Source of the DNA: an uncultured Bacilli bacterium
GTDB lineage: Bacteria; Bacillota_I; Bacilli_A; RF39; UBA660
Assembly (NCBI GenBank): GCA_944371995.1
Contig: CALVYD010000004.1
Coordinates: forward strand, 1 to 64,000
Direction: 5' to 3'
DNA length: 64,000 bases
In this document: one piece after another, positions 35,334 through 36,897 of the stretch
Position numbering within the stretch: the first letter of the stretch is position 1
How the letters are laid out: each line of letters begins with the position of its first letter
The notes under the pieces: generated by a model
Seen by the model: the letters and a program-made list of their open reading frames with translations, nothing else
The model's database searches: none
Told to the model about the DNA's origin: nothing
Position numbers and translations under genes: made by a program

Positions 35334-35433
35334 TTGGAAAAAGTGTGTTGCTGATTTTCTTTATATATCAACAAAAATTATAAAGTTTAAATTAGACATC
35401 GACGTATATTTTGAAAGAAACAGTATAAATTTC

Positions 35434-35462
35434 TTGATTTTTTTCTTTTCAAATGGTATAAG
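35434..35462 (+). promoter_or_regulatory. Promoter of the CRISPR-like array
   Basis: TTGATT (35434-35439), 17 bp, TATAAG (35457-35462), with an upstream TGG giving an extended -10. Transcription is predicted at 35469-35470, the first base of repeat 1. Confidence 0.6.
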
Positions 35463-35469
35463 ATAAGTA

Positions 35470-35709
35470 GTTCTACATTACCTATGAAGGCTTTGAAACT
35501 CAACTGTTTCTTCAACTTCTTCTACATCAATTATATTGTGTTCTACATTACCTATTGAGGATTTTAAGCTCTTTAATGAATGCATTTTCTGCAACATATA
35601 ATTTTGTTCTACCTTACCTATTAAGGCTTTGAATCTCCATTAAAGCTATAATCCATTCCGTCAAGTCCGTTGATAACTAGTTCTACCTTACCTATTAAGG
35701 AATTTGTTT
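35470..35709 (+). CRISPR. Degenerate four-unit CRISPR-like array without cas genes
   Basis: Four copies of a 30-bp unit start at 35470, 35540, 35606 and 35680. All begin GTTCTAC-TTACCTAT, and copy 1 ends in TTTGAAAC, as in type I-B/III repeats. Copies 3 and 4 contain the hairpin CCTTA-CCTAT-TAAGG. The copies differ from each other at several positions, mainly in the last ten bases. The intervening segments (40, 36 and 44 bp) are unrelated to each other. A promoter ends just before copy 1 and a terminator follows copy 4. No cas gene lies in the window. It is either a decaying orphan array or an RNA gene built from repeats. Confidence 0.65.
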
Positions 35710-35719
35710 CAAAATAAAA

Positions 35720-35752
35720 GTCAAGGAGTAGTTGCTGTCCTTGATTTTTTTG
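35720..35752 (+). terminator. Terminator after the CRISPR-like array
   Basis: Seven-bp stem TCAAGGA/TCCTTGA (35721-35727 with 35738-35744), a ten-base loop, then a T run. With the promoter at 35434-35462 it defines an RNA of about 280 nt. Confidence 0.85.
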
Positions 35753-35785
35753 TTGCTATTTTTGGTCAAATATATTAGTTTGCTG

Positions 35786-35794
35786 CATATATTA
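35786..35794 (+). promoter_or_regulatory. Sporulation-type -10 element before cotE
   Basis: CATATATTA fits CATANNNTA. GTCAAAT lies 14 bp upstream (35765-35771) and is a weak match to a sigma-E -35. In B. subtilis cotE is transcribed by sigma-E and sigma-K (established), so this is the best supported of the spore-type elements here. Confidence 0.55.
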
Positions 35795-35811
35795 AGTTAG
35801 GAGGGGTAGTT

Positions 35812-36342
35812 ATGTCTAGTTATAAAGAAATTGTTACAAAAGCAGTTATAGGAAAAGGTAAAAAACTTTTTACTACGGATAATACCATTAAAGTTAGTAA
35901 TTTGCCTTCTACTATTTTGGGATGCTGGGTAATTAACCATAATTTTCAAGGTCAAAAAAATGGTGATCAAATTACTATTACTGGTAGTTATGATGTTAAT
36001 ATATGGTATTCTTATGATCGTGATACGAAGACTGATGTTGTAAAAGAGACAAATCGTTATCAGGAAGTTGTTCGTATGAGAAGCAGGGATGATAGCAGTG
36101 ATAATGAAGAAATTATTGTTCGTAGTTTAAAGCAGCCTACATGTTCTAACATTACTATTGATGGTAATGACATTCATTATACAATTGAAAAAGAACTTGG
36201 TATCGAGTTAGTTGGTGATGTTAAAGTAAAAATAGAGGCTGACGAAGAGGAAGACCCTTGGGATGAAATTGTTGACGAGTCTCAAGATAATACTGTAACT
36301 GATGATATTGATGAAGATTTTATACAAGATAATACCATTTAA
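35812..36342 (+). CDS. cotE: Outer spore coat morphogenetic protein CotE
   Basis: CotE directs assembly of the outer spore coat in Bacilli. The 176 residues match it from end to end: MSSYKEIVTKAVIGKGKK at the start, PSTILGCWVINHNF, GSYDVNIWYSYDRDTKTDVVKE and LKQPTCSNITIDGN. An acidic C-terminal tail completes it. AGGAGGGG precedes the ATG. Synteny miaB-ricA-cotE is the same as in B. subtilis except for the repeat array in front. CotE is largely limited to Bacilli-type spore formers, which helps place the organism. Confidence 0.93.
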   Translation: MSSYKEIVTKAVIGKGKKLFTTDNTIKVSNLPSTILGCWVINHNFQGQKNGDQITITGSYDVNIWYSYDRDTKTDVVKETNRYQEVVRMRSRDDSSDNEEIIVRSLKQPTCSNITIDGNDIHYTIEKELGIELVGDVKVKIEADEEEDPWDEIVDESQDNTVTDDIDEDFIQDNTI

Positions 36343-36350
36343 TGTCTTTG

Positions 36351-36377
36351 ATAGCACTTATGAGTGCTATTTTTTTT
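36351..36377 (+). terminator. Terminator after cotE
   Basis: Eight-bp perfect stem ATAGCACT/AGTGCTAT (36351-36358 with 36363-36370), loop TATG, then TTTTTTT. Confidence 0.92.
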
Positions 36378-36411
36378 AGTATGTGTTATCCTTTTAGTAA
36401 GGAGTGTTGTT

Positions 36412-36897
36412 ATGGGAAATAAAAAATATATATTTATTACTATTGGTATTGTTTTGGGAGTTTTTGCTTTTCTATTTTGGATATTTTTTGTGGTTATTTC
36501 TTCTCGTAGACCTAATTATACTTTTTCTCTTTCTAATGCCGGTACTGATTGTAGTAAACGGGAGTATTCTCTTTATTATGAAAAGAATGATGTTAAGTAC
36601 TATAGTGCTTGTTATGATAAGGTGAATGTTATAGAGGAGAAGTTTTTATTTAAAAAGACGGATGATATTAAAAAATATATTGATAATGGTCAGTTACTTT
36701 CTATTTTACAGAAGTTTGATATGGATAAATGGAAATATAGTGAAGGAGTACAAACAGATTATTACGTTTTAGATTCTTCAAAAAACTTAATTATTACTAG
36801 GTGTAGTACTGAAACTCGGGATACTTATTATTTTCATCGTGGTACTGATGGCTATTTTTGTCAGTATTTTGTGGATTTTAATATTCGGCAAGAATAG
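36412..36897 (+). CDS. Unknown protein with N-terminal membrane anchor
   Basis: The 161-residue protein has one N-terminal helix (about 7-28) and a soluble extracytoplasmic part with four or five cysteines (TDCSKREYSLYYE, YSACYDK, TRCSTETRD, YFCQYF) that could form disulfides. No lipobox is present. AGGAGTG precedes the ATG at 36412; the frame can be extended to 36364, but that part is terminator DNA. No family is recognised. It lies between cotE and rpsP on its own transcript. Confidence 0.65.
   Translation: MGNKKYIFITIGIVLGVFAFLFWIFFVVISSRRPNYTFSLSNAGTDCSKREYSLYYEKNDVKYYSACYDKVNVIEEKFLFKKTDDIKKYIDNGQLLSILQKFDMDKWKYSEGVQTDYYVLDSSKNLIITRCSTETRDTYYFHRGTDGYFCQYFVDFNIRQE

Follow-up and report, generated by a model that had tools for sequence, protein, structure and literature searches.

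Positions 35470–35709 of the window, the 64-kb stretch of contig CALVYD010000004.1 analysed here, are a genuine small CRISPR array of the class-1 type with a type I-B/III-like repeat. The same repeat is carried by two sister species, and a stand-alone cas6 gene occurs in exactly the genomes that have the array. Orphan arrays are usually labelled relics or clients of a full system; what is new here is an array family that persists in three species together with one selected cas gene. On balance we favour, with moderate confidence, the reading that a class-1 array is transcribed independently and processed by a trans-encoded Cas6, the effector having been lost, missed or provided in trans.

A repeat finder and direct reading of 35470–35709 both gave four 30-bp units separated by 40, 36 and 44 bp (Table 1), confirming the four units and unrelated intervening segments described by the initial annotation. 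These segments resemble neither one another nor the repeat. When the 600-bp region was shuffled 500 times with its dinucleotides preserved, copies of a 20-mer core numbered at most two and never four, which rules out a chance origin of the repeat; elsewhere in the window, tiles of 600 bp contain no four-copy 20-mer family. No Rfam family was matched in the window. The type I-B/III-like tag reported for one unit is likewise present, at the end of repeat 1. Direct repeats within the 20–40-bp range of CRISPR arrays, with unique spacers between them, recur in all three species (four, five and five units), and their spacers span 29–48 bp, a wide range compared with most CRISPR types.

Table 1. Features of the array locus, in positions of the 64-kb window.
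Feature	Position	Strand	Basis or remark
Leader with promoter motif	35380–35469	+	Direct reading; 95/109 identical in G004
Repeat 1, GTTCTACATTACCTATGAAGGCTTTGAAAC	35470–35499	+	Only unit of the window array with an exact TTTGAAAC 3′ end
Spacer 1, 40 bp	35500–35539	+	Absent in G004 and G002; no target above chance
Repeat 2, GTTCTACATTACCTATTGAGGATTTTAAGC, degenerate	35540–35569	+	Repeat finder
Spacer 2, 36 bp	35570–35605	+	35/36 bases common to G004
Repeat 3, GTTCTACCTTACCTATTAAGGCTTTGAATC	35606–35635	+	Repeat finder
Spacer 3, 44 bp	35636–35679	+	In neither G004 nor G002
Repeat 4, GTTCTACCTTACCTATTAAGGAATTTGTTT, terminal, 3′ end decayed	35680–35709	+	Same sequence in G004
Intrinsic terminator hairpin and T run	35716–35752	+	Fold; kept in G004

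Like the RliB-CRISPR of Listeria discussed below, the array stands isolated, with no adjacent cas genes and with promoter and terminator motifs of its own. By eye, a −35 element TTGATT (35434–35439) is followed after 17 bp by an extended −10 element TGgTATAAG (hexamer 35457–35462). The predicted transcription start falls near 35469–35470, close to base 1 of unit 1, in agreement with the promoter previously annotated as leading into that unit; this promoter is absent from the list of a consensus scan because the scanner requires T as the last −10 base. The strong terminator proposed to follow unit 4 also holds up, as the segment 35680–35760 folds at −17.9 kcal/mol (z −2.43). The CCTTA/TAAGG hairpin is present as described and weak, at −3.2 kcal/mol, a stability not clearly above that of shuffles. 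Pfam agrees with the naming of miaB, ricA (Com_YlbF family) and cotE as the flanking genes.

The initial annotation had proposed searching the genome for the 30-bp unit and for cas genes, and both searches found matches. Among 16 genomes of the genus, which appear to be MAGs and are 77–95% complete, the repeat is carried by three: the genome of the window itself (G000), an uncultured Bacilli MAG (G004, CALVJR010000034.1) and a Bacilli MAG (G002, JAGHJJ010000002.1). An exact-pattern scan of 84,980 species matched G002 and G004 only, and in a family sample of 386 genomes, outside which G002 and G004 fall, the repeat was matched in G000 only. The pooled consensus of the three arrays is GTTCTACMTTACCTATTRAGGCTTTGAAAC, and a cotE tree unites their hosts in one fully supported clade. 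G004 carries a five-repeat array at the same locus as G000, and its leader, promoter motif, decayed last repeat and terminator correspond to those of G000; the −10 region and the junction between leader and repeat 1 are unchanged. Its trailer-side spacer, TCTTTAATGAATGC(A/G)TTTTCTGCAACATATAATTTT, is the one common to both genomes (35 of 36 bases), three leader-side spacers being private to G004 and spacers 1 and 3 to G000. G004 also has about 107 bp of extra sequence upstream of the leader, including a partial tandem duplication (L003 1394–1541), that is missing from the window. The ricA–cotE site of G002 is empty; in that genome five repeats, with four spacers of their own, form an array among other genes, which ends in a decayed last repeat, then an inverted repeat resembling a terminator. 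The most decayed repeats lie at the trailer end in all three arrays, and the exact 8-nt tag TTTGAAAC is kept by one repeat in G000, three in G004 and four in G002. Polarity towards the leader is visible in the spacer common to G000 and G004, which is trailer-side only, and in the decayed terminal repeats, a pattern to which recombination or deletion may contribute. Taken together, the unique spacers, the leader, the decayed trailer repeats and the leader-side spacer differences between sister species identify the locus as a genuine CRISPR array.

Part of the spacer difference may stem from events other than acquisition. The right flanks of G000 and G004 are near-identical (synonymous divergence, dS, 0.04 for cotE and 0.01 for the next gene; 147 of 150 trailer positions), whereas the leader matches at 95 of 109 positions and more distant genes reach a dS of up to 0.45. 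The near-identical cotE region suggests recent recombination at the array locus, and a breakpoint inside the array could explain part of the difference, given that the right flank is nearly unchanged and the leader and farther genes have diverged. With two genomes compared, differential deletion from a longer ancestral array is another possible source. Window positions 35353–36897, compared with G004 contig C34, show hardly any difference in cotE and the gene after it despite the dS of up to 0.45 elsewhere, and G000, G002 and G004 all encode the same CotE protein.

The description of the array as having no cas genes is right for the locus, but the genome encodes a stand-alone cas6 and an unrelated Cas9–Cas1–Cas2 system. 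A PF10040 search gave a single marginal match, in G004 (E 0.115), and missed the cas6 of G000; further examination of the G004 match led to a full-length Cas6. This protein is recognised by PF01881 (1.2e-28), TIGR01877 (97.4 bits, cut-off 58.65) and PADLOC Cas6b (2e-54). When it was used as query, cas6 was found in exactly three of the 16 genus genomes, namely the array-bearing G000, G002 and G004. The copies lie on contig C8 in G000 (intact, 84% identical to G004), contig C3 in G004 and contig C60 in G002, where the contig end cuts the gene after 40 residues. All three are syntenic (in G002 for the gene start only) and adjoin the same small gene pair, and a TrmA/RumA-like methyltransferase gene is found nearby in G000 and G004. 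No cas gene was recognised beside cas6 in the two assembled neighbourhoods of about 20 kb (G000 and G004). Between these genomes the cas6 dN/dS is 0.165 (bootstrap 0.10–0.26) at a dS of 0.46, indicating that the protein is constrained by purifying selection. Alignment to Pyrococcus furiosus Cas6 (3pkm, 1.7e-13) places Tyr28 and His43 opposite Tyr31 and His46, which we take to be its catalytic residues. Because the three species form one clade, the co-occurrence of array and cas6 counts as a single shared history, not as three independent associations. A full-text literature search, with most subscription journals outside its coverage, returned no report of a stand-alone cas6 paired with an orphan array.

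Genome-wide effector searches covered the Cas5 and RAMP families. Cas5 (PF09704) had no match in any of the 16 genus genomes and the Csm/Cmr RAMP family (PF03787) none in G000, G002 or G004, while the positive controls of both searches matched. No Cas1 was matched in G002 or G004, and the single Cas1 of G000 is that of a type II system. From the gene set of a type I-B system we thus found Cas6b, through three profiles in G004 and its 84% identical homologue in G000; Cas5, cognate Cas1–Cas2 and the RAMP proteins of a type III system were not detected.

According to our favoured model, the array would be transcribed from its own predicted promoter, and the stand-alone Cas6 (encoded on contig C8 in G000) would cut the transcript inside each intact repeat. 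The predicted cut lies directly after the CCTTA/TAAGG hairpin on its 3′ side, with 8 nt of the repeat still to follow, and would leave TTTGAAAC as the 5′ tag of each crRNA. Such a tag resembles that of Cas6-processed class-1 repeats. The crRNAs could then serve as guides for a class-1 effector that is either supplied in trans, for instance from a mobile element, or missed by our searches, since none is encoded near the array or cas6 or was detected in the genome. Spacers would have been acquired while an adaptation module was available; as far as is visible this acquisition is historical, as G002 and G004 show no Cas1 and the Cas1 of G000 is type II. Consistent with this model, one repeat occurs in three species with different spacers, one of them common and trailer-side, next to a conserved leader and terminator; repeats decay at the trailer end and close on an 8-nt tag; and cas6 keeps its place, its constraint and the aligned Tyr28 and His43 in exactly the array-bearing genomes. 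Against it stand the missing effector and cognate adaptation genes (Cas5, RAMP and Cas1 searches), the empty search for spacer targets, the spread of spacer lengths, the single origin behind the cas6 co-occurrence and the restriction of the exact tag to repeat 1 of G000, on account of which this genome may yield few crRNAs. Among the options raised by the initial annotation, an orphan array using cas genes elsewhere has the most support, although our searches found a single matching cas gene, cas6, and found it on a different contig.

A decaying array, another of those options, is less likely and still a serious rival. It would be what remains of an ancestral type I-B or III system that lost its effector and adaptation genes, leaving the array and cas6 as passive, decaying leftovers. 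The decayed trailer repeats, the small number of units, the lack of a detected effector or cognate Cas1, the single intact tag in G000 and the empty ricA–cotE site in G002 would all be expected of such a relic. However, the dN/dS of cas6 implies that the gene was constrained for the greater part of the divergence, and both the −10 region and the terminator are conserved. Leader-side spacers also differ between sister species, a difference that could be due in part to differential deletion or to a recombination breakpoint.

Two further readings seem to us improbable. In one, array and Cas6 form a minimal module with no resident Cas effector complex, in which crRNAs excised and held by Cas6 might act directly, for example as antisense RNAs to the transcripts of invaders, or might provide a ready stock of guides for effectors that arrive on mobile elements; this we regard as doubtful. 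Next, at a similarly low probability, we place a complete class-1 system whose effector genes went unassembled or unbinned, for example on a plasmid, or belong to families beyond the Cas5 and RAMP searches (Cas3, Cas7, Cas8, Cas10). The incompleteness of the MAGs leaves room for it, as does the readiness of family searches to miss genes, illustrated by the failure of PF10040 to find the G000 cas6; against it, the Cas5 and RAMP searches of the three genomes were empty with matching positive controls, and cas6 stands alone in both assembled neighbourhoods. Class-1 effectors do occur in the genus, as shown by a csm (type III-A) operon in G007, which runs from cas10 to csm5 on a short A+T-rich contig (C52, 266–5609); the csm contig carries no array and no Cas6 was detected in that genome. 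PF03787 matched G007 and, elsewhere in the genus, contig C97 of G011, where Cmr-like RAMP genes lie on DNA with a G+C content apparently far above that of the rest of the genus, probably a contamination of the MAG.

The search of phage and plasmid collections suggested by the initial annotation found no target: spacers of the three arrays matched nothing beyond chance in phage collections or genus genomes, nor did those of the window array in a plasmid collection. IMG/VR contains no match to exact cores drawn from several spacers or to a core that was back-translated; for spacer 3 this covers two core patterns and a back-translated core. A phage-borne repeat was rejected, the repeat having no IMG/VR match. 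Self-targeting was likewise discarded, because the best genus matches were exact over 20–21 nt, about the chance level, and fell in unremarkable genes; one G004 spacer matches a membrane-protein gene at 25 of 29 positions, at or near chance. Spacers directed against the csm operon of the genus were dismissed as well, as the best match (25/36) is at the chance level (control 24/36). Since known sequences account for only a minority of the spacers found in uncultured bacteria, the absence of matches is no evidence against a CRISPR array. The open frames noted in the reverse-complemented spacers are the chance expectation at such lengths. Under a codon model the spacers lean antisense to coding sequence (one-sided sign-flip p 0.04), a lean not seen in the type II control; it would fit RNA targeting and is too weak to rely on.

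That lean, the promoter motif and terminator of its own and the wide range of spacer lengths would also suit a non-CRISPR RNA gene built from repeats, a small or regulatory RNA in which the segments between repeats are directed at fixed targets in the host, which was the remaining option of the initial annotation. We consider this very improbable: from one sister species or locus to another the spacers change but repeat and leader persist, host targets in the genus do not exceed chance, and Cas6 is co-retained. Identical spacers in relatives would have pointed to such a structured RNA; those of G000, G004 and G002 differ, apart from the one trailer-side spacer common to G000 and G004.

Just as improbable is that the mini-array is a client of the Cas9 system in the same genome, since the 22-repeat array beside Cas9, Cas1 and Cas2 in G000 has an unrelated 36-bp repeat and uniformly 30-bp spacers, and G004 and G002 carry the mini-array repeat with no Cas1 found; type II ownership was rejected on the repeat. 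The type II locus (contig C18, 7679–15309) encodes a Cas9 of about 1,200 aa and, in the position where one might look for csn2, between its array and cas2, a 360-aa ATPase-like ORF. In its array one spacer occurs twice in succession, and two others are near-identical and apparently cover the start of related genes.

The favoured reading, an independently transcribed class-1 array served by a trans-encoded Cas6, has partial counterparts among known systems. Type I-B processing by Cas6b shares with it the Cas6b-family protein and a repeat in which a short hairpin precedes a terminal 8-nt tag of the GAAAC type; unlike type I-B systems, it has no detected Cas5 and lacks an adjacent operon. An orphan I-F array of E. 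coli that carries anti-cas spacers (Almendros 2016, cited in PMC12814883) is similarly an isolated class-1 array kept when its effector genes are missing, and its genome too has a CRISPR system of another type, but here no spacer matches the genus csm operon beyond chance (25/36 versus 24/36). A survey of isolated CRISPR arrays and isolated cas loci shows both to be common (PMC5294841), and here too array and cas gene lie apart, each without CRISPR-type neighbours; that survey defines a cas locus as a set of at least three cas genes, whereas the partner here is a single cas6.

By our comparison, the nearest system in kind appears to be RliB-CRISPR of Listeria monocytogenes, an isolated five-repeat array with its own promoter and terminator and no adjacent cas genes, which is processed by PNPase and whose activity needs trans-encoded I-B cas genes of other strains (PMC3886909). 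Its 29-nt repeats (GTTTTAGTTACTTATTGTGAAATGTAAAT) are mutually identical, and its spacers measure 35–37 nt, some of them matching phages (PMC3886909). Both are isolated chromosomal arrays with short repeats of the class-1 (I-B) kind and few spacers, at a locus conserved in relatives. The window array differs in its repeat, in the retention of a stand-alone Cas6 and in that no complete system with its repeat was found. The pairing raises the question of what use processed guide RNAs have in a cell that encodes no recognisable effector (Cas5 and Csm/Cmr searched). Exchange of effector modules is known to leave arrays and cas6 in place (PMC6452270), and this clade may show such an array-and-cas6 chassis caught without its effector.
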